The notes under the pieces are model-generated. The model was given only the letters and a program-made list of their open reading frames with translations, was not told where the DNA came from and searched no databases. Of a stretch of 64,000 nt of DNA, positions 1,463-38,315 are shown in pieces (within the stretch, counting starts at the first letter, position 1; every line of letters starts with the position of its first letter). Source of the DNA: Actibacterium sp. (GTDB lineage: Bacteria > Pseudomonadota > Alphaproteobacteria > Rhodobacterales > Rhodobacteraceae); assembly GCA_016278325.1 (NCBI GenBank), contig JADQCB010000001.1, positions 62,001 to 126,000 on the forward strand, read 5' to 3'. The position numbers and the translations under genes are program-made.

Positions 1463-1495
1463 TTGAAGTTTCGCATGGCTAACTATATTGTTGGT
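1463..1495 (+). promoter_or_regulatory. Candidate ectA promoter with overlapping MarR-type operator
   Basis: TTGAAG (1463-1468) and TATATT (1484-1489), 15 bases apart, look like -35 and -10 elements upstream of the ectA start at 1518. The imperfect palindrome GCTAACTATATTGTTGGT (1478-1495, 12 of 18 positions symmetric) covers the -10. A dimeric repressor bound there would block polymerase. The spacer is shorter than the ideal 17, and TTAGCC (1455-1460) is an alternative -35. Confidence 0.45.
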
Positions 1496-1517
1496 CGTGA
1501 GCAGAGTGAGGACCGAC

Positions 1518-2057
1518 ATGAACATGCAGACCCCGAAGGCCCTTAAGGCCGCCAAAGCCCCGATCACGTTCCGGACCCCGGTCCAGGAGGACGGCGCCGA
1601 GATCTGGGAGCTCATTCGCGCATGCAAGCCGCTCGATGAGAATTCCATGTATTGCAACCTGTTGCAGTGCGATCATTTCGCCGACACCTGCGTGGTGGCC
1701 GAGATGGAAGGGAAGATCGTCGGATGGATTTCCGCCTATGTGCCCCCCAGCGACCCCGAAACTGTGTTTGTCTGGCAGGTCGCGGTGTCGCCGGACGCGC
1801 GTGGCCGTGGACTGGGCAGCAAGATGCTGCACGAACTGTTTTCGCGCGAAGCCTGTTACCAGGTATGGCGCCTTCAGACGACGATCACCCGTGACAACGA
1901 TGCCTCCTGGGCCCTGTTCAAGCGGTTCGCGGACAGCTGCGGCGCCGCGATGGACAGCGAAGCCTACTACAAGCGGGACACCCATTTCCGGGGCATCCAC
2001 GACACCGAGCATATGGTGACAATTCGCCTGGCCGAGCAACTCAAGGCCGCGGCCTGA
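1518..2057 (+). CDS. ectA: L-2,4-diaminobutyric acid N-gamma-acetyltransferase
   Basis: A GNAT-fold acetyltransferase that acetylates L-2,4-diaminobutyrate with acetyl-CoA, the second step of ectoine synthesis. The acetyl-CoA loop is visible as DARGRGLGSKML, preceded by the strand FVWQVAVSP. The start is placed at the ATG at 1518 because GTGAGG lies six bases upstream. An in-frame TTG at 1488 lacks a good site and falls inside the probable promoter. This gives 179 residues, normal for EctA. It is the first gene of ectA-ectB-ectC-ask_ect, with 58 bases to ectB. Confidence 0.96.
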   Translation: MNMQTPKALKAAKAPITFRTPVQEDGAEIWELIRACKPLDENSMYCNLLQCDHFADTCVVAEMEGKIVGWISAYVPPSDPETVFVWQVAVSPDARGRGLGSKMLHELFSREACYQVWRLQTTITRDNDASWALFKRFADSCGAAMDSEAYYKRDTHFRGIHDTEHMVTIRLAEQLKAAA

Positions 2058-2115: not shown

Positions 2116-3405
2116 ATGACGACTGTTGAAACAGCCGACAAAGAAATCTTTGCACGACGCGAGTCCGAGGCCCGGTCCTATTGCCGGAACTTCGACACCG
2201 TCTTTACCAGTGCCGAAGGCAGCACCATGACCGATGCCGACGGCCGCACCTATATCGACTTCCTGGCCGGATGTTCGTCGCTGAACTATGGCCATAACGA
2301 CCCGGACATGAAGGCCGCGCTGCTGGACCATATCGCCGGCAACGGCATCGCCCACGGGCTGGACATGTATACCGATTCCAAGGCCGCCTTTCTCAAGGCG
2401 TTCGAGGAACTCGTGCTCTGGCCGCGCGGCATGGATCACAAGGTGATGATGACCGGCCCCACCGGCACCAACGCTGTCGAGGCCGCGATCAAGCTGGCCC
2501 GCAAGGTGACCGGGCGCAAGAACGTGATCTCGTTCACCAACGGGTTCCACGGCATGACGCTCGGATCGCTGGCGCTGACCGGCAATCACGGCAAGCGCGC
2601 CGGCGCCGGTGGCGTGTCGCTGAACGATGTCACCCGCATGCCCTTCGAGGGGGCGCTTGGCGACGACGTGGACACGTTGCAGATCATCGAATCGATGCTG
2701 GCGAATTCGTCCTCGGGGATCGAGCCGCCGGCCGCGTTCATCCTGGAACTGGTCCAGGGCGAAGGCGGGCTCAACGCCGCCAGCCCGGAATGGGTGCAGG
2801 GAATCGCCCGCCTGGCCGAAGCGCATGGCGCGCTTCTGATCGTCGATGACATCCAGGCCGGCCTGGGCCGCACCGGAAGCTTCTTCAGCTTCGACAATTT
2901 CGGCATCGTCCCGGACATGGTGACGATGGCCAAGTCGCTGTCTGGCTTCGGCCTGCCGTTCGCGGCGCTGCTGATCAAGCCGGAACATGACATCTGGAAG
3001 CCGGCCGAGCACAACGGCACCTTCCGTGGCAACACCCACGCCTTCGTCACCGCGCGCATCGCGCTGGAGAAGTTCTGGGCCGACGACCGGTTCCGCCACC
3101 AGATCGCGCTGAAGAGCCAGGTTCTGGAAGAACGCCTGCTTGGCATCGCGGCCCGGATTCCGGGCGCCACGATCAAGGGGCGCGGGATGATGCGCGGCGT
3201 CGATGTCGGATCGGGCGAGCTGGCCGGCGAAATCTGCGCCGAAGCCTTCCGCAACGGTCTTATCATCGAAACCTCGGGCGCCGAGGACGAGGTGGTGAAG
3301 GTGCTTGCGCCGCTCACCACGCCGATGGAACAGTTCAAGGAGGGGCTCGATATTCTCGAGTCGGCCGTCGATACCATCCTCCCTTTAAAAGTAGCTGCGG
3401 AGTAA
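2116..3405 (+). CDS. ectB: Diaminobutyrate--2-oxoglutarate transaminase
   Basis: A class-III PLP aminotransferase that converts L-aspartate-4-semialdehyde and glutamate to L-2,4-diaminobutyrate, the committing step of ectoine synthesis. The 429-residue product has PLP-binding Asp244 in [13 protein letters not shown] and Schiff-base Lys273 in [16 protein letters not shown] lies just upstream of the ATG at 2116. It is the second gene of the ectoine operon. The reverse direction of the same chemistry is probably carried out by the related but distinct DoeD at 32047-33417. Confidence 0.96.
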
Positions 3406-3409
3406 GCGC

Positions 3410-3796
3410 ATGATCGTACGCGACTTCAACAAGCTGAAAGACAGCGACAGGGCCGTCTCGGACGCGCAATGGACCTCGGTGCGGATGCTTCTGGCCAATG
3501 ACGGGATGGGGTTTTCGTTCCACATCACCACGCTGAAGGCCGGTTCGGAACACACGTTCCATTACAAGCACCACTTCGAGAGCGTCTATTGCATCTCGGG
3601 AGAGGGCTCGATCACCGACCTTGCCTCGGGCGAAACCTACGAGATCAAGCCCGGCGTGATGTATGCGCTGGATCAGCATGACAAGCACACCGTCCGCGCC
3701 ACTGGCGAGGATCTGGTGATGGCATGCTGCTTCAACCCGCCCGTCACCGGTCACGAAGTGCACCGCGAAGACGGCTCCTACGCGCCGGCAGACTGA
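3410..3796 (+). CDS. ectC: L-ectoine synthase
   Basis: A cupin-fold enzyme that cyclises N-gamma-acetyl-L-2,4-diaminobutyrate to ectoine. The 128-residue product has the typical EctC length. The three iron-binding residues known from characterised ectoine synthases are present at the same positions: Glu57, Tyr85 and His93. The gene starts four bases after the ectB stop, which implies translational coupling. No ectD (ectoine hydroxylase) follows, so this window by itself supports ectoine but not 5-hydroxyectoine. Confidence 0.97.
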
Positions 3797-3834
3797 CAAA
3801 AGGACGTGCTCGGGCAACCGGGGACGGAACGACA

Positions 3835-5265
3835 GTGACCCATAAACATACCGTCGAGAAGATCGGCGGAACCTCCATGTCGCGCGTTCACGAACTGCGC
3901 GACACCCTTTTCATCGGCGACCGGACCGGCGACGACCTGTATAACCGGGTGTTCGTCGTGTCGGCATTCGGCGGCATTACCGACCTGTTGCTGGAACACA
4001 AGAAATCCGGCACGCCGGGCGTCTATGGGCTCTTTTCCAACGCCGACAACGATCGCGGCTGGTCCGACGCACTGAACGACGTGGCCGACGCGATGCGCGC
4101 CGCCCAGGACGCGGTGCTGGACCATCCCGCCGATCGCGCCTCGGCCGACGATTTCGTGCGAGAGCGGATCGAGGGCGCGCGCTCTTGCCTGATCGATCTT
4201 CAGCGGCTGTGCTCTTACGGGCATTTCCAGCTGTCGAGCCACATGCAGATCATCCGGGAGCTGCTTTCCGGCCTGGGCGAGGCGCATTCCGCCTTCGTCA
4301 CGGCCACGATGCTGCGCCGCGCGGGTGTCGATGCGCGCTTCGTCGATCTGTCGGGCTGGCGCGACGAGGGCAGCTATACGCTGGAAGAGCGCATCAAGCA
4401 GGGCTTTTCCGATGTCGATTTCGCGCGCGAATTGCCGATCGTGACCGGCTATGCACAATGCGCCGAAGGGTTGATGGCCGAATTCGACCGCGGATATTCC
4501 GAGGTCACCTTCTCGAAGATCGCGGCGCTGACCGGCGCGCGCGAGGCGATCATCCACAAGGAATTCCACCTGTCCTCGGCCGACCCGCGACTGGTGGGCG
4601 CGGATTCGGTGGTGAAACTTGGCCACACCAACTATGACGTCGCCGACCAGCTGTCGAACATGGGCATGGAGGCGGTCCACCCCAAGGCCGCCAAGATGCT
4701 GCGCCAGGCCGGGATCTCGCTGCGCGTGACCAACGCCTTCGAGCCGCACGATCCGGGCACGCTGATCGACGAGGAAGACGGCAATACCAGCCGCGTCGAG
4801 ATGGTCACGGGGCTGGGTGTCTATGCGCTGGAAGTGTTCGAACAGGACATGGTCGGCGTCAAGGGTTACGACAGTTCGATCCTCGATGTGCTGACCCGTC
4901 ACAAGGTGCGTATCGTCGCCAAGACATCGAACGCCAACACGATCACCCACTATCTGGATGCCCCTCTGAAACTGATCAAGCGGGTGGAGCGGGACCTGGC
5001 CGATCGCTATCCCGGCGCGCAGATCAGCGTGCGCAACCTGGCCGTGGTCGCGGCGATCGGGCGTGACCTGAAGGGCCTGAAAGTTCTCTCGCGCAGCCTG
5101 GCCGCTCTCGAGGACGCGGGGATCGACCCTGTTGCCGTTCAGCAAACCACGCGCGACGTGGACGCCCAGTTCATCGTCCCGCGCGACAAGATGGACGATG
5201 CCATCCGCACCCTGCACCGGGAACTCGTCGAATCCCCTTTGGCATCACTGAGACAGGTCGCATGA
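3835..5265 (+). CDS. ask_ect: Ectoine-pathway aspartate kinase
   Basis: An aspartokinase of the Ask_Ect type, which supplies aspartyl phosphate for aspartate semialdehyde and so feeds EctB. The kinase domain begins at the very N-terminus (KIGGTSMSR), and the C-terminal third (from about residue 330) looks like the tandem ACT region. I chose the GTG at 3835, 38 bases after ectC, because GGGACGGA precedes it and the protein then begins at the kinase motif, giving 476 residues. Upstream in-frame starts would overlap ectC. Linkage to ectABC marks this as the specialised isoenzyme, thought to escape the feedback control of the biosynthetic aspartokinase. Confidence 0.93.
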   Translation: MTHKHTVEKIGGTSMSRVHELRDTLFIGDRTGDDLYNRVFVVSAFGGITDLLLEHKKSGTPGVYGLFSNADNDRGWSDALNDVADAMRAAQDAVLDHPADRASADDFVRERIEGARSCLIDLQRLCSYGHFQLSSHMQIIRELLSGLGEAHSAFVTATMLRRAGVDARFVDLSGWRDEGSYTLEERIKQGFSDVDFARELPIVTGYAQCAEGLMAEFDRGYSEVTFSKIAALTGAREAIIHKEFHLSSADPRLVGADSVVKLGHTNYDVADQLSNMGMEAVHPKAAKMLRQAGISLRVTNAFEPHDPGTLIDEEDGNTSRVEMVTGLGVYALEVFEQDMVGVKGYDSSILDVLTRHKVRIVAKTSNANTITHYLDAPLKLIKRVERDLADRYPGAQISVRNLAVVAAIGRDLKGLKVLSRSLAALEDAGIDPVAVQQTTRDVDAQFIVPRDKMDDAIRTLHRELVESPLASLRQVA

Positions 5266-32046: not shown

Positions 32047-33417
32047 CTATCCCAGCTGCGCCCTGACTGCCTTTTCCGTTGCCGCGACGATCTGGTCGGC
32101 TTCCTGCCGGTTCAGGCACAGCGGCGGCGCGAACCCGATGATCTCGCCCTGCGGCATCGCCCGCGCGATCACCCCGTCTTCGGCCATCGCGCCGACGATG
32201 CCGGCCGCCGCCTTCCGGTCCGGGTCCATGAACACCCGGTCGGCTTTGTCCGCAACAAGCTCAACCGCGCAAAGCATGCCGTCGCCGCGGATGTCGCCCA
32301 CGTTCGGATGATCGCCCAGCGCCTCGCGCATCGCCCGGTTCAGATAGGCGCCCGTGTCGCCCGCATTCGCGACCAGGCCCATCTCGTCGATCAGCTTCAG
32401 GTTGGCCACGCCCGCCGCCGCTCCGATCGGATGCGCCGAATAGGTCCAGCCATGGCCGATCGGCCCGTTCTCGTCGGTGCCCTGTTCCAGCACTTTCCAC
32501 ATCTTGTCGGATACGATCGACCCCGACAGCGGCGCATAGGCCGAGGTCAACCCCTTGGCGATGGTGATCAGATCGGGTCGCATCCCGTAATGATCCGAAC
32601 CGAACATGGTGCCAAGCCGGCCGAAACCGGTAACGACCTCGTCGGCGATCAGCAGAATGTCATGCTTTTCCAGCACCGGCTGGATCGCCTCCCAATAGCC
32701 CGCCGGCGGGGGCACGATGCCCCCGGTGCCCAGAAGCGGCTCGCCGATGAAGGCCGCGATGGTGTCCGCGCCTTCGCGTTCGATCAGCTGCTCCAGCTCC
32801 GCCGCACACCAGGCGCTGAACGCTTCTTCGCTCATGTCGGGATCGGGACGGCGGAAGTAATACGGCGCCTCGGTATGCACGACCTGCGCCAGGGGCAGGT
32901 CGAACTTCTTGTGAAACAGCTCCAGCCCGGTCAGTGAACCGGTCATCAGGCCCGAGCCGTGATACCCCCGCCAGCGGCTGATGATCTTCTTCTTCTCCGG
33001 CAATCCGCGGATGTTGTTGTAATACCAGATCAGCTTGATGTTGGTCTCGTTCGCGTCCGATCCGCCAAGGCCGAAATAGACCTTGCTCATGTTGTCGGGC
33101 GCACGATCGAGGATCATTTTCGACAGGGTTATGGACGCCTCCGTGCCATGCCCGACATAGGCATGGTAATAGGCCAGCTCACGCGCCTGTTCGGCAATCG
33201 CCTCGGCGATCTCACTCCGTCCATAGCCGACATTGACACAGTAAAGCCCCGCAAAGGCATCCAGCAGGCGATTGCCCGCGCGATCCTGGATGAACACGCC
33301 CTCGCCGCCGGTCACGACACGCTGCGGTGCCTCTCCGCGCGCGAACTGGCCCAGATGGGTGGACGGGTGCAGGAAATTCTCCCGGTCCCATTGCTCGAGC
33401 AGATCGTTCTTCAACAT
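32047..33417 (-). CDS. doeD: Class-III aminotransferase, probable diaminobutyrate transaminase of ectoine catabolism
   Basis: A 456-residue PLP aminotransferase with Asp259 in LIADEVVTGFGRLG and Schiff-base Lys288 in TIAKGLTS. The class includes beta-alanine/pyruvate and omega-amino acid transaminases. In this cluster (doeX, doeC, doeA and a deacetylase) its expected role is L-2,4-diaminobutyrate to aspartate-4-semialdehyde, which DoeC then oxidises to aspartate. The substrate is inferred from context; the sequence alone would also fit other omega-aminotransferases. It lies downstream of doeC with a 111-base gap that contains an intergenic hairpin repeat. Confidence 0.85.
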   Translation of the reverse strand: MLKNDLLEQWDRENFLHPSTHLGQFARGEAPQRVVTGGEGVFIQDRAGNRLLDAFAGLYCVNVGYGRSEIAEAIAEQARELAYYHAYVGHGTEASITLSKMILDRAPDNMSKVYFGLGGSDANETNIKLIWYYNNIRGLPEKKKIISRWRGYHGSGLMTGSLTGLELFHKKFDLPLAQVVHTEAPYYFRRPDPDMSEEAFSAWCAAELEQLIEREGADTIAAFIGEPLLGTGGIVPPPAGYWEAIQPVLEKHDILLIADEVVTGFGRLGTMFGSDHYGMRPDLITIAKGLTSAYAPLSGSIVSDKMWKVLEQGTDENGPIGHGWTYSAHPIGAAAGVANLKLIDEMGLVANAGDTGAYLNRAMREALGDHPNVGDIRGDGMLCAVELVADKADRVFMDPDRKAAAGIVGAMAEDGVIARAMPQGEIIGFAPPLCLNRQEADQIVAATEKAVRAQLG

Positions 33418-33528: not shown

Positions 33529-35001
33529 TCAGGCCCAGTCGCGGCAGACATACTTGACCTCGGTGAAGGCTTCCATCCCGAGGCGCGCGCCCTCGCGGTT
33601 CACACCGGATTGCTTGTAGCCGCCAAAGGGGATCGGCGCGCCGGTGACCTTGGTGCGGTTGACCGCGACCATGCCGAATTCCAGCGCGCGCGAGGCGCGA
33701 TATATACGGCGCGGGTCCATCGTGTGCAGATAGGCCACCAGCCCGTATTCCGTCGCGTTGGCCCGTTGCAAGACCTCGTCTTCGCTGTCGAAGGGGGTGA
33801 TCGCCGCGACGGGGCCGAAGGTTTCCTCGCGCATGATCGATGCCGCGTCGGGCACATCGGCCAGCACCGTGGGCTGATAGAACAGCGGCCCCTGCGGGCC
33901 GCGCGCGCCACCTGTCATCAACCGCGCGCCCTTGTACAGCGCATCGGCCACATGCTCTTCCTGCTTGGCGACCGCCTTTTCGTTCATCAGCGGGCCGAGA
34001 TCGGGATCGTCCAGCCCGTTGCCCAGCGTCAGCTTTTCCGTCGCCTGCGCGAAGCGGGTGCAGAACGCGTCATAGACCGACCGCTCGACATAGAACCGGT
34101 TTGCCCCCAGGCAGTCCTGCCCGGTGGTGGCGAATTTGGCCTTGATCGCCTCTTCCACCGCCTGATCCATGTCGGCATCGGCGAACATGATGAAAGGCGC
34201 GTGCCCGCCCAGTTCCAGCACCAGCCGTTTCACGGTATCGGCGGACTGGCGATAGAGCAGCTTGCCGATCTCGGTCGAGCCGGTGAAGGACAGCGCACGC
34301 ACGCGCGGATCGGCCGTCCAGGGCTCCACGACGGCGGACGCCTTGCCGGTGACCACGTTGAAGGCCCCGGCGGGCAGGCCGGCACGCTCGGCCAGTTCGG
34401 CCAGCGCCAGCGCCGAGAAGGGCGTCTCGCCCGAGGGGTGCGCGACCACCGTGCAGCCCGCCGCCATCGCCGCGCCGGCCTTGCGGGTCAGCATCGCCGA
34501 GGGGAAATTCCAGGGCGTGATCAGCGCGGCGACGCCCACCGGCTCGCGCCAGATCTCGACCTCCGCATCGGGCAGGTGGCTGGTCACGCCCTCGATATTC
34601 GGGCGCTTGGCCTCTTCGGAATAGAACTCCAGGAACGAGGCGGCATAATCGATCTCGCCGCGCGCTTCCGATATCGGCTTGCCCTGTTCCAGGACCATGA
34701 TCCGGGCCAGGTCCTCGCGATGCGTGCACATCAGTTCGAACCAGCGGCGCAGCAGGCGCGATCGCTCCTGCGGCAGCAACCCCGACCAGACCGGAAAGGC
34801 CGCATCGGCGGCGTCGACCGCGGCGCGGGATTCCCCGGCCGACAGGCTGGCCACCTCGCCCAGCCAGGCGCCGGTGGCAGGGTCGGTCACGGCCAGCGTC
34901 GCATTGTCCCCGGCGCCGGTCCACTTGCCGCCGATATAGGAAAACTGGCGCACCAGGCGCGGATCGTTAAGCGCGTTCAGCGCGGATTGATGACGTGACA
35001 T
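33529..35001 (-). CDS. doeC: Aldehyde dehydrogenase, probable aspartate-semialdehyde dehydrogenase of ectoine catabolism
   Basis: A 490-residue NAD(P)-dependent aldehyde dehydrogenase close to the succinate-semialdehyde branch. The catalytic set is present: Asn165 (TPWNFP), Lys174, Glu263 (LELGG) and Cys297 (GQDC). In the ectoine pathway DoeC oxidises aspartate-4-semialdehyde to aspartate. At the usual coenzyme lysine of the VLKPS/A motif this protein has His188 (VVAHPSGETP), which is unusual. The ATG at 35001 is supported by GGAGG seven bases upstream. An inverted repeat covers its probable promoter at 35033-35063. Confidence 0.87.
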   Translation of the reverse strand: MSRHQSALNALNDPRLVRQFSYIGGKWTGAGDNATLAVTDPATGAWLGEVASLSAGESRAAVDAADAAFPVWSGLLPQERSRLLRRWFELMCTHREDLARIMVLEQGKPISEARGEIDYAASFLEFYSEEAKRPNIEGVTSHLPDAEVEIWREPVGVAALITPWNFPSAMLTRKAGAAMAAGCTVVAHPSGETPFSALALAELAERAGLPAGAFNVVTGKASAVVEPWTADPRVRALSFTGSTEIGKLLYRQSADTVKRLVLELGGHAPFIMFADADMDQAVEEAIKAKFATTGQDCLGANRFYVERSVYDAFCTRFAQATEKLTLGNGLDDPDLGPLMNEKAVAKQEEHVADALYKGARLMTGGARGPQGPLFYQPTVLADVPDAASIMREETFGPVAAITPFDSEDEVLQRANATEYGLVAYLHTMDPRRIYRASRALEFGMVAVNRTKVTGAPIPFGGYKQSGVNREGARLGMEAFTEVKYVCRDWA

Positions 35002-35115: not shown

Positions 35116-35610
35116 TCAATTCGTCTGCCTTGCCTGCGATGCAAGCAGATCGAGCGGCGGAAGGCCAGACGTTTTGACCGGCTTCGTCACGATATAGGTA
35201 TAGTAGCGTGCCAGTCCGATTCGGGCGGCCAACATCCCGTCGATCAGCCGTTGATAGCTGTCGATCGACGGCGTCACGACCTGCATCAGATAATCGAACC
35301 CGCCACCCAGCGCCCAGCATCCCGTCACCTCGGGATATTCCTGCATCGCGGCTTCGAACCCGGCAAAGGTCTCGGTGCGATGATTGTCCAGTTCCGCCGC
35401 GACGAAGACCAGCACATGCGGGCCCAGTGCGCGCAACGAGATCCGCGCGCCATAGCCTTCGATCAGTCCCGCTTTTTCCAGGCGCTTCAGACGTTCCCAG
35501 CAGGGTGTCGGCGACAGGTTGATGCGTGCGGCCAGGGCTGCCTTGGTGATCCGTCCCTCGCGCCAGAGAATGCGCAGGATGTCCAGGTCGCGTTGATCCA
35601 GCCGGGTCAT
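35116..35610 (-). CDS. doeX: Lrp/AsnC-family regulator of ectoine catabolism
   Basis: A 164-residue Lrp/AsnC regulator. The N-terminal winged helix (residues 1-60) includes LDQRDLDILRILWREGRITKAAL and LSPTPCWERLKRLEKAGLI; the C-terminal RAM ligand domain spans about 68-145. Members encoded beside doeA (DoeX/AsnC) respond to the degradation intermediates N-acetyl-diaminobutyrate and diaminobutyrate and control uptake and catabolism genes. It lies directly upstream of doeC and divergent from doeA, so it is placed to regulate both arms. Confidence 0.88.
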   Translation of the reverse strand: MTRLDQRDLDILRILWREGRITKAALAARINLSPTPCWERLKRLEKAGLIEGYGARISLRALGPHVLVFVAAELDNHRTETFAGFEAAMQEYPEVTGCWALGGGFDYLMQVVTPSIDSYQRLIDGMLAARIGLARYYTYIVTKPVKTSGLPPLDLLASQARQTN

Positions 35611-35935: not shown

Positions 35936-37150
35936 GTGATGGAAGACAGTTCCGAATTTCCCTATCTGGCCGAAAGCCGGGCCCCTTTCAGCCTGGCCGA
36001 GTATGAACGCCGCCTTGACAAGGTGCGCGCGGCGATGGACGCCCAGGGGCTGGACATGCTGTTCATCGAGGATCCGTCGAACATGGCCTGGCTGACGGGC
36101 TATGACGGCTGGTCGTTCTATGTCCACCAGGGGGTGCTGGTCTTTCACGATGCCGATCCGATGTGGTGGGGCCGCGGGCAGGATGCCAACGGCGCGGTGC
36201 GCACCGTGTGGATGGACAACGCCCATGTCGCCCAATATGCCGATATCTATGTGCAATCGACCGAGCGTCACCCGATGCAGGCGCTGGCCCGGATGATCAA
36301 GGATCTGGGCTATGGCGAAAAGCGCATCGGCGTCGAGATGGACAACTATTATTTCTCGGCCAAGGCCTATCTGACGCTGCTCGAGGAATTGCCCGAGGCG
36401 CAACTCATCGACGCGGGCGGGCTGGTGAACTGGCAGCGCGGCGTGAAATCCGACGAAGAGCTGGATTTCATGCGCCGCGCCGCGCGGATCTCGGAATCGC
36501 TGGTGGACAAGGTGCTGGAACTGGTCGAGCCCGGCCTGCCCAAGAACGAACTGGTGGCCGAGATCTGCCGCCAGGCCATTCGCGGCGTGGACGAGGATTG
36601 GGGCGATTATGCCGCCATCGTGCCGCTTCTGCCCTCGGGGTCGGATGCCGCGGCGCCGCACCTGACCTGGGACGGCCGCCCGTTCGAAACCGGCGAGGCG
36701 ACCTTTTTCGAAATGTCGGGCTGCTACCGCCGCTATCATGCGCCGTTTTCGCGCACCGTCTTTCTGGGCGAGCCGCCGGATTACCTGCTGCGCGCCGAGG
36801 CGGCGCTGGTCGAAGGACTGGAAGCCGGGCTTCAGGCCGCCCGCGCCGGCAACCGTGCCTGCGACGTGGCCAATGCGCTGGCCGCCCCGCTGGAAGCCGC
36901 GGGCATCAGCCGCAGCGCCCGCTGCGGCTATCCCATCGGCCTGTCCTATCCGCCGGACTGGGGCGAGCGCACGATCAGCTTCCGCGCCGAGGACGAAACC
37001 ATCCTGGAGCCGGGCATGACCTTTCATTTCATGCCCGGGCTGTGGATGGAAAACTGGGGGATGGAGATCACCGAGCCGATCCTCATCACCCCCTCCGGTC
37101 CGGCCGAAACCTTCTGCAACCGGCCCCGCCAGCTTTTCGTCAAGAGGTGA
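35936..37150 (+). CDS. doeA: Ectoine hydrolase
   Basis: A member of the M24 (creatinase/prolidase-like) fold that opens the ectoine ring to N-acetyl-L-2,4-diaminobutyrate, the first step of ectoine degradation. The creatinase N-domain covers about 20-160 and the pita-bread domain 170-400. The segments EMSGCYRRYHAPFSRT and GYPIGLSYPPDWGERTISF are typical of DoeA/EutD. The Asp ligands of metal-dependent M24 peptidases are not present in the first of these. The start is GTG at 35936 or ATG at 35939. The next gene follows after one base, so the two are almost certainly co-translated. Confidence 0.93.
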   Translation: MMEDSSEFPYLAESRAPFSLAEYERRLDKVRAAMDAQGLDMLFIEDPSNMAWLTGYDGWSFYVHQGVLVFHDADPMWWGRGQDANGAVRTVWMDNAHVAQYADIYVQSTERHPMQALARMIKDLGYGEKRIGVEMDNYYFSAKAYLTLLEELPEAQLIDAGGLVNWQRGVKSDEELDFMRRAARISESLVDKVLELVEPGLPKNELVAEICRQAIRGVDEDWGDYAAIVPLLPSGSDAAAPHLTWDGRPFETGEATFFEMSGCYRRYHAPFSRTVFLGEPPDYLLRAEAALVEGLEAGLQAARAGNRACDVANALAAPLEAAGISRSARCGYPIGLSYPPDWGERTISFRAEDETILEPGMTFHFMPGLWMENWGMEITEPILITPSGPAETFCNRPRQLFVKR

Positions 37151-37151
37151 C

Positions 37152-38315
37152 ATGCTCGACAGAACCCAGGCCCTGCTGAAGGATCTGGTGGCCTATCCCA
37201 CCGTGTCCTCGGACAGCAATCACGAGATGATCGTGCATATCGCCGCGCTGCTGTCGGAACTCGGCGCGCGGGTCGATCTGATGGAGGATGAAACCGGCCA
37301 CAAGGCAAACCTGTTCGCCACGATGGGGCCCGCCGATGCGCCGGGCGGGGTCGTGCTGTCAGGCCATACCGACGTGGTGCCGGTCGCCGATCAGGACTGG
37401 TCATCGGATCCGTTCGCCCTGCGCGAGGCGGACGGGCGCCTCTACGGGCGCGGCAGCTGCGACATGAAGGGCTTCATCGCCTGCACCCTGGCGATGGCGC
37501 CACGGTTCGCGCGGGCCGACCTGAAGCGGCCTTTGCATTTCGCCTTTACCTATGACGAAGAGGTCGGCTGCCTGGGCGGCCAGGCGCTGGTGGCCGAGTT
37601 GAAGGCGCGCGGCATCCGCCCCGACATCGCCATCATCGGCGAACCGACGGAAATGAAGATCATAGACGCGCACAAGGGCTGCTTCGAATACACGGCCGAA
37701 TTCCACGGGCTGGAGGGCCACGGCTCTGACCCCGGTGTCGGGGTGAATGCCGCCGAATATGCGGTGCGTTATGTCACCCGACTGCTTGAATTGCGCGACG
37801 CGCTCAAGGGCCGGGCCCCGGCCAACAGCCCGTTCGACCCGCCCTTCACGACGATCAACCTGGGCCGGATCCACGGCGGTGTCGCGCATAACGTGATCCC
37901 CGGCAAGGCCGAGGTCGAATGGGAGATGCGCCCGATCCAGCCCGGCGACGCCGATTTCGTCAAGGCCGAGATCGCACGCTATTGCGACGAGGTGCTTCTG
38001 CCCGAGATGCGCGCCATCCACCCGGATGCGGCGATCGACACCACCGTGATCGGAGAGGTCGTCGGCCTGGACCCGATGGACGAGAATGCAGCGCGGCAAC
38101 TGGTTGCCGAACTGACCGGACAGAACGGCACACAGACGGTGCCCTTCGGCACCGAGGCGGGGCTCTTCCAGGACATGGGCATGTCGGCCGTTGTTTGTGG
38201 GCCCGGCGCGATCGCGCAGGCCCACAAGCCCGATGAATTCGTCGCGATCGACCAGCTTGGCCAGTGTCTTGCGATGTTGGACCGGCTCGCGACACAGATG
38301 GAACGCGCCGCCTAA
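37152..38315 (+). CDS. M20-family (ArgE-like) deacetylase, probable N-acetyl-diaminobutyrate deacetylase
   Basis: A 387-residue M20 metallopeptidase-fold deacetylase close to acetylornithine deacetylase. Metal and catalytic residues are in place: His72 (SGHTDVVP), Asp104 (GSCDMKG), Glu136/Glu137 (YDEEVG), Glu164 (GEPTEMK) and His358 (QAHKPDEF). It starts one base after doeA. Its position predicts deacetylation of N-acetyl-L-2,4-diaminobutyrate, which is one methylene shorter than N-acetylornithine. The classical DoeB/EutE belongs to a different family (aspartoacylase/succinylglutamate desuccinylase), so this looks like a non-homologous replacement. A plain ArgE role cannot be excluded. Confidence 0.85.
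   Translation: MLDRTQALLKDLVAYPTVSSDSNHEMIVHIAALLSELGARVDLMEDETGHKANLFATMGPADAPGGVVLSGHTDVVPVADQDWSSDPFALREADGRLYGRGSCDMKGFIACTLAMAPRFARADLKRPLHFAFTYDEEVGCLGGQALVAELKARGIRPDIAIIGEPTEMKIIDAHKGCFEYTAEFHGLEGHGSDPGVGVNAAEYAVRYVTRLLELRDALKGRAPANSPFDPPFTTINLGRIHGGVAHNVIPGKAEVEWEMRPIQPGDADFVKAEIARYCDEVLLPEMRAIHPDAAIDTTVIGEVVGLDPMDENAARQLVAELTGQNGTQTVPFGTEAGLFQDMGMSAVVCGPGAIAQAHKPDEFVAIDQLGQCLAMLDRLATQMERAA

Follow-up and report, generated by a model that had tools for sequence, protein, structure and literature searches.

An ArgE-type M20 deacetylase likely stands in for DoeB/EutE in an ectoine degradation locus of Actibacterium sp.

Which enzyme deacetylates the product of DoeA where the gene behind doeA is not doeB? 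According to the available parts of PMC3187862, DoeA yields N-alpha-acetyl-2,4-diaminobutyrate (N-alpha-acetyl-DABA), and DoeB of H. elongata takes off its acetyl group. In the window, by which we mean the whole 64,000-nucleotide stretch of Actibacterium sp. DNA that was analyzed, the gene directly behind doeA encodes an M20 protein. The genes of this locus are as follows.

35939..37150, plus strand: doeA/eutD, ectoine hydrolase (M24, creatinase-like), with an alternative GTG start at 35936; from TIGR02993, 6twk, and eutD of the reference locus L091.
37152..38315, plus strand: ArgE-type M20 deacetylase, proposed N-alpha-acetyl-L-2,4-diaminobutyrate deacetylase (DoeB replacement); from ORF, profiles, alignment, and model.
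35116..35610, minus strand: asnC/doeX, Lrp-type regulator, divergent from doeA; 68% identity over 104 residues to L091 asnC.
33529..35001, minus strand: ssd/doeC, aspartate-semialdehyde dehydrogenase of the ALDH family, start taken from the ORF translation; 76% identity to L091 ssd.
32047..33417, minus strand: atf/doeD, diaminobutyrate transaminase, class III; 77% identity to L091 atf, PRK07482 821.6 bits.

L091 is a complete eutABCDE-asnC-ssd-atf ectoine/hydroxyectoine cluster, and it served as the reference for the window asnC, ssd, and atf genes (68 to 77% identity). The window doeA is 57% identical to L091 eutD, and its product matches the solved DoeA 6twk with an E value of 1.1e-157 (phmmer) and scores 594.4 bits against TIGR02993, slightly below the cut-off of 613. 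The window thus carries doeA together with orthologues of asnC, ssd, and atf, as expected of an ectoine degradation locus. Since these genes resemble the L091 set, the doeA-doeX-doeC-doeD complement is present, with doeB alone replaced. The same window also holds a synthesis cluster, ectA-ectB-ectC-ask (window:1488-5265).

1488..2057, plus strand: ectA, diaminobutyrate acetyltransferase; TIGR02406 187.3 bits, cut-off 120.6.
2116..3405, plus strand: ectB, diaminobutyrate transaminase (synthesis); TIGR02407 582.1 bits, cut-off 552.2.
3410..3796, plus strand: ectC, ectoine synthase; PF06339 194.8 bits, NF009806 191.5 bits, cut-off 128.
3724..5265, plus strand: ORF holding aspartate kinase (ask), behind ectC; NF006614 684.8 bits, cut-off 536.

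Because the NF006614 match starts at residue 41, the true start of ask lies further inside ORF 3724..5265. Given ectABC and ask, the source organism can presumably make ectoine itself. Behind these genes lie ABC transporter genes (window:5323-8909), the binding protein of which scores 559 bits against NF008633 (PRK11622; cut-off 203).

The original prediction had placed an M20 enzyme with a full ArgE-type metal site one base after doeA, and both points were borne out. The M20 ORF is intact, running from the ATG at 37152 to a stop ending at 38315 (387 amino acids), and a single base separates it from the end of the doeA ORF at 37150. Its product matches Peptidase_M20 (130.9 bits) and M20_dimer (76.5 bits) in Pfam and exceeds the NCBIfam cut-offs of both PRK07522 (482.3 bits; cut-off 412) and the acetylornithine deacetylase family TIGR01892 (388.9 bits; cut-off 297.7). 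In the alignment with ArgE 7rsf, His72, Asp104, Glu137, Glu164, and His358, as well as Asp74 and Glu136, match the same residues, and these metal and catalytic residues are invariant in 131 of 131 aligned M20 rows. By its profile scores and its di-metal and catalytic residues, the protein belongs to the ArgE families. Its AF2 model (mean pLDDT, 91.3) has as its best fold match the E. coli di-zinc ArgE 8uw6 (Z 37.9, rmsd 3.3, 370 residues, 33% identity), with which 3pfo and the DapE structures 8f8o and 7t1q tie within 1 Z; no AstE/AspA structure was among the matches of the model, an absence that carries no weight. Nine positions differ between the clade of the window M20 and outgroup M20s at the chosen thresholds (e.g., 133 T/S, 191 G/S, and 253 A/C), and none of the nine could be interpreted from the alignment as a substrate contact of a pocket distinguishing diaminobutyrate from ornithine.

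ArgE deacetylates an N-alpha-acetyl diamino acid whose side chain is one carbon longer than that of acetyl-DABA. The window M20 resembles E. coli ArgE (7rsf and 8uw6) in its fold, its metal and catalytic residues, and its sequence (33% identity), and N-alpha-deacetylation chemistry is expected of both; the two differ in pathway. The source genome encodes ArgJ (379.8 bits; cut-off 298), so arginine synthesis needs no ArgE, and the window M20 is not required for that role. When the whole genome (99.76% complete) was searched for DoeB/EutE with TIGR02994, nothing matched at E ≤ 1e-3, and a DoeB elsewhere in it was rejected on that result. Both searches favor the original prediction.

To place the locus in context, we surveyed 149 genomes of the same family as the source, one per genus. 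We defined a strong DoeA as a best M24 match of roughly 420 bits or more, which excluded G033 (399 bits), G090 (363 bits), and G017 (266 bits), and the M20 clade as matches of at least 390 bits, lying above a score gap from 390.8 to 345.6 and sharing 53% identity or more with the window protein. A strong DoeA was found in 97 of the 149 genomes (99 M24 rows, with second copies in G013 and G038; for G147 and G123, the scores of two M24 pieces were summed approximately and treated as a single row). The M20 clade was present in 62 of these 97 genomes and in 0 of the 52 others (Fisher 5e-17, a value that ignores phylogeny); if G033, where an M20 of 42% identity adjoins the 399-bit M24, and G090 were taken as DoeA positive, the counts would become 62/99 and 0/50. 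M20 lay directly downstream of DoeA in 49 of the 62 M20-clade genomes, with a gap of 2 to 30 bases in 45 of the 49 pairs (median, 16), as measured between match ends rather than ORF ends. This adjacency is far beyond chance. Among the 13 genomes in which M20 was not counted beside DoeA, G131 was scored as nonadjacent although an M20 fragment adjoins its DoeA at a contig end, and M20 adjoins a Pot-like ABC transporter in G002 and G119. M20 lies beside eutB-eutC in G004, and G117 has its M20 divergently oriented to asnC and atf.

EutE above its cut-off of 402.7 bits was found in 21 of the 149 genomes, all of them DoeA positive, and it was directly downstream of DoeA in 20. Of the genomes with EutE or M20, 79 of 81 carry just one; G013 and G119 alone have both, which would be redundant if the roles were identical. 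Neither EutE above cut-off nor the M20 clade was found in 16 of the 97 strong-DoeA genomes. Below-cut-off EutE relatives (180 to 300 bits) occur in 20 of the 149 genomes, including 8 of the 62 M20 genomes. An AstE/AspA-type enzyme could act in such M20 genomes; the window genome has no such relative. Only 27 of the 149 genomes pass the 613-bit cut-off of TIGR02993, compared with 97 having a strong DoeA, and this profile therefore probably under-annotates DoeA in the family. A LuxR-type autoinducer-binding regulator lies directly behind DoeA at L046:6816-7598 and L050:6585-7343, in genomes (G050 and G018) with neither EutE above cut-off nor the M20 clade. Outside the family, L127:6966-11840 reads DoeA-Lrp-SSD-AT, with no eutE or M20 match within the 15-kb stretch.

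The same arrangement was seen beyond the family sample. From a genome_contigs search, in which the best 80 of at least 595 pattern-matching stretches were kept, we took 21 named loci at 55% identity or higher. Within this selection from the best 80, M20 was directly downstream of DoeA in 16 of 21 loci, a strong DoeA (530 to 634 bits) was present in all 21 genomes, DoeB above cut-off was present in 0 of 21, and below-cut-off EutE relatives (180 to 290 bits) were present in 7 of 21, including Pelagibacterium lentulum (252 bits). Examples of such relatives from the two samples are G560:C87:11242-12228 and G559:C15:6443-7393. The P. lentulum locus (L157) reads eutA-eutB-eutC-eutD-M20 beside uehA and uehB, and M20 therefore occupies the position of eutE. 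In Brevirhabdus pacifica (L145), M20 is divergent from asnC-ssd-atf, and DoeA is located elsewhere. A Mesorhizobium plasmid carries the pair under the labels doeA and argE, so the argE label that had been anticipated beside M24 hydrolase genes does occur in public annotation; the gene in front of the pair is labeled a PLP-dependent aminotransferase family protein and is probably a MocR-type regulator. At L136:7001-8142, on a Mesorhizobium amorphae plasmid, M20 adjoins a short M24 piece and looks broken because it is annotated as two separate ORFs.

We next compared the histories of the two genes in quick maximum likelihood trees, for which SH-aLRT was the only support measure. The DoeA tree holds 116 rows, and partner changes were counted over the 85 rows with EutE or M20, the 31 partnerless rows being left uncounted. 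On this tree, the partner must have switched between EutE and M20 at least three times: the main M20-linked set comprises 63 rows, 55 with M20 (SH-aLRT, 99), the Mesorhizobium plasmid row lies within a mostly EutE-linked set (15 rows; SH-aLRT, 99), and Pelagibacterium falls near the base. By this count, the M20 pairing arose with at least three DoeA lineages, and so it is not one frozen accident. In the M20 tree, where an M20 counts as adjacent if it immediately follows a DoeA (more than 45% identity) on the same strand, all 57 DoeA-adjacent M20s fall in one 97-row set (SH-aLRT, 94), and M20 is directly downstream of DoeA in 0 of 34 outgroup rows. In outgroup locus L193, the M20 and a DoeA-like gene (41% identity) are convergently oriented; in L210, eutE-like (47%) and DoeA-like (34%) genes lie nearby. 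The DoeA alignment contains 97 columns with conservation of 95% or higher in each of the two classes (M20 partnered and EutE partnered) and 0 columns that are conserved but different between the classes.

How does the window enzyme relate to the deacetylases already assigned to this step? Like DoeB/EutE (TIGR02994), it is encoded immediately after doeA within an ectoine degradation locus and has the same proposed reaction, and the two are distributed in a nearly mutually exclusive manner, but DoeB/EutE belongs to the unrelated AstE_AspA_cat family (as in L091 EutE), whereas the window protein is an M20 enzyme. The premise that every DoeB-type enzyme is an aspartoacylase family member holds for DoeB/EutE but is incomplete, since DoeB2 (NCBIfam NF038260), a curated N(2)-acetyl-L-2,4-diaminobutanoate deacetylase found beside a DoeA, is of the M20 superfamily. 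An M20 deacetylase in the ectoine pathway is therefore not a new idea. DoeB2, however, belongs to the M20 amidohydrolase subfamily (343 bits against TIGR01891 in L121, where its partners are DoeA_2 and an EctB-like transaminase), while the window M20 is ArgE type. When we scanned the deacetylases of four of the five above-cut-off DoeA_2 loci taken wide, the DoeB2 profile scored 605 to 659 bits (cut-off, 550) in all four doeB-doeD-doeA-doeC loci (L121, L122, L124, and L125), and TIGR01892 gave these proteins 19 to 41 bits in the three of four where it was listed. We rejected the window M20 as a DoeB2, as NF038260 is absent from its top 25 families, the lowest of which scores 77.6 bits. In the available parts of PMC7192451, Methylomicrobium has the gene order doeB-doeD-doeA-doeC, and N-alpha-acetyl-DAB was detected in a doeB mutant after down-shock; from this gene order, the DoeB of Methylomicrobium alcaliphilum would be a DoeB2. 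The window enzyme, annotated argE, would then be a third deacetylase type for this step, of a subfamily distinct from DoeB2. The AbgB of certain Bacillota clusters is presumably of the M20 amidohydrolase type as well, unlike the ArgE-type window M20. Those putative ectoine clusters, which their authors call tentative, resemble the window locus in that an amidohydrolase gene (abgB) is present and eutE is absent (available parts of PMC13188858). Within the portions of the open-licence literature available to us, we found no paper naming an ArgE-type enzyme as DoeB.

Taken together, these observations make it very likely that the window M20 is an ectoine pathway deacetylase standing in for DoeB/EutE; we infer its substrate, di-zinc mechanism, in vivo role, and the direction of the swap. 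This role is supported by the identities to L091, the co-occurrence across 149 genomes, the L157 locus, the partner changes, the presence of ArgJ, and the absence of DoeB. Against it count the ArgE family cut-offs that the protein passes, the sub-cut-off window DoeA, the 16 DoeA genomes with neither enzyme, the two genomes with both, the 13 M20s not counted beside DoeA, the below-cut-off EutE relatives in some M20 genomes, and the failure of the alignment to reveal a residue pointing to a diaminobutyrate rather than an ornithine pocket. A nonhomologous deacetylase in ectoine catabolism, as first proposed, thus gains support from linkage, co-occurrence, and near exclusion, all at the level of sequence comparison.

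The best surviving alternative, although an improbable one, is that the DoeA-M20 pair acts on a related compound, such as 5-hydroxyectoine or another N-acetyl diamino acid precursor, with M20 deacetylating its product. G013 would fit this reading, since it holds a full eutABCDE cluster plus a separate DoeA-M20 pair, as would the proximity of a Pot-like transporter: among the matches listed, the gene for its binding protein (SBP) lies within 12 kb of DoeA on the same contig in 25 of 49 M20-linked but 0 of 20 EutE-linked family loci (rows down to G052; 33 further listed rows fall on no counted DoeA contig). However, the window asnC, ssd, and atf genes are 68 to 77% identical to an ectoine set, 42 of 44 ectoine synthase genomes carry DoeA, no DoeA column separates the partner classes, and the L157 M20 sits within a canonical cluster. 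We consider it very improbable that the gene is a plain ArgE that acts on N-acetylornithine in arginine synthesis and lies beside doeA by chance. Although TIGR01892 and PRK07522 are above cut-off and no solved structure is closer than E. coli ArgE, the genome has ArgJ, all 62 M20-clade genomes have a strong DoeA, the clade is found in none of the 52 genomes lacking one, and the adjacent pairs are so closely spaced (2 to 30 bases in 45 of 49). Since a housekeeping gene for arginine synthesis would not follow the distribution of DoeA, we rejected an arginine role on the basis of ArgJ and this co-occurrence. Finally, given that ArgE enzymes are well established to attack alpha-acetyl groups and that EutE and M20 occur singly in 79 of the 81 genomes having either, we give almost no credence to a mere side role for M20, e.g., N-gamma-acetyl-DABA deacetylation, with an unrecognized enzyme acting as DoeB, even though H. 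elongata doeA expressed in E. coli gave rise to both acetyl-DABA isomers, of which the gamma isomer is not taken by DoeB (available parts of PMC3187862), 2 genomes have both EutE and M20, and some M20 genomes have below-cut-off EutE relatives.

The Pot-like SBP was present in 129 of the 149 family genomes (among the matches listed); its presence is therefore uninformative, only its proximity to DoeA counts, and we rejected presence of the transporter as a marker. A PotABCD-like transporter, a candidate ectoine importer, adjoins DoeA-M20 in L081, L082, L083, L084, L087, L138, L140, L148, L227, L229, L236, and L237, with atf standing between the transporter and the pair in L081, L138, and L140. 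Relatives of the L081 binding protein include a GABA sensor, mannopine (MotA) and agropine binders, and 8jv1.

Related genes are found in SAR11. The DoeA-linked set of the M20 tree includes 26 SAR11 M20 proteins (46 to 51% identity), 22 of them from genomes with a strong DoeA (439 to 475 bits); 0 of these 26 genomes had a DoeB match. Among 118 SAR11 genomes, DoeA was found in 39 and M20 in 42 (35 genomes had both, 4 only DoeA, and 7 only M20), and the two were on one contig, 6 to 27 kb apart, in 29 of the 35 with both. In seven SAR11 stretches, doeA comes after a potABCD-type transporter and eutA is nearby; M20 lies inside six of the seven and, in L260, beyond the stretch. The locus reads M20 / potC potB potD potA doeA eutA at L256:4376-12028 and L257:2967-17882, and L257 also holds an aldehyde dehydrogenase and an agmatinase, fitting the gene names in a figure legend on polyamine loci (PMC8437039). 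The available parts of that paper assign SAR11 PotABCD to polyamines, with its authors stating that validation remains, and PotD abundance is given in its abstract. Three findings count against an ectoine role in SAR11: both DoeA rows examined keep 69 of the 97 columns conserved in other DoeAs, EutA scores 217 bits (cut-off, 318), and the SBP scores 613 bits against 8jv1-8jv4, structures deposited as spermidine/putrescine binding. On these grounds, we hold back from extending the ectoine role to SAR11. It is accordingly doubtful that DoeA, M20, and a "PotABCD"-type ABC transporter form a wider module for the uptake and degradation of ectoine-like osmolytes in Rhodobacterales and SAR11.

In the pathway proposed for the window locus, DoeA would open ectoine to N-alpha-acetyl-2,4-diaminobutyrate, and the M20 enzyme, from the ArgE-type lineage of N-alpha-acetyl-amino-acid deacetylases, would remove the acetyl group. 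Atf/DoeD and Ssd/DoeC would then convert diaminobutyrate to aspartate, under regulation by AsnC/DoeX. Recruitment of an ArgE-type enzyme as the deacetylase is the most economical reading of these comparisons, and the enzyme is a candidate to fill the deacetylase gap in many alphaproteobacteria that possess doeA but not doeB. Since a survey from 2026 focused on genomes carrying EutD, EutE, and EutB (available parts of PMC13188858), doeA-M20 loci would be missed by it. If the proposed role is true, argE labels beside doeA need revision, the capacity of alphaproteobacteria for ectoine catabolism has been undercounted, and three nonorthologous enzymes fill one step.
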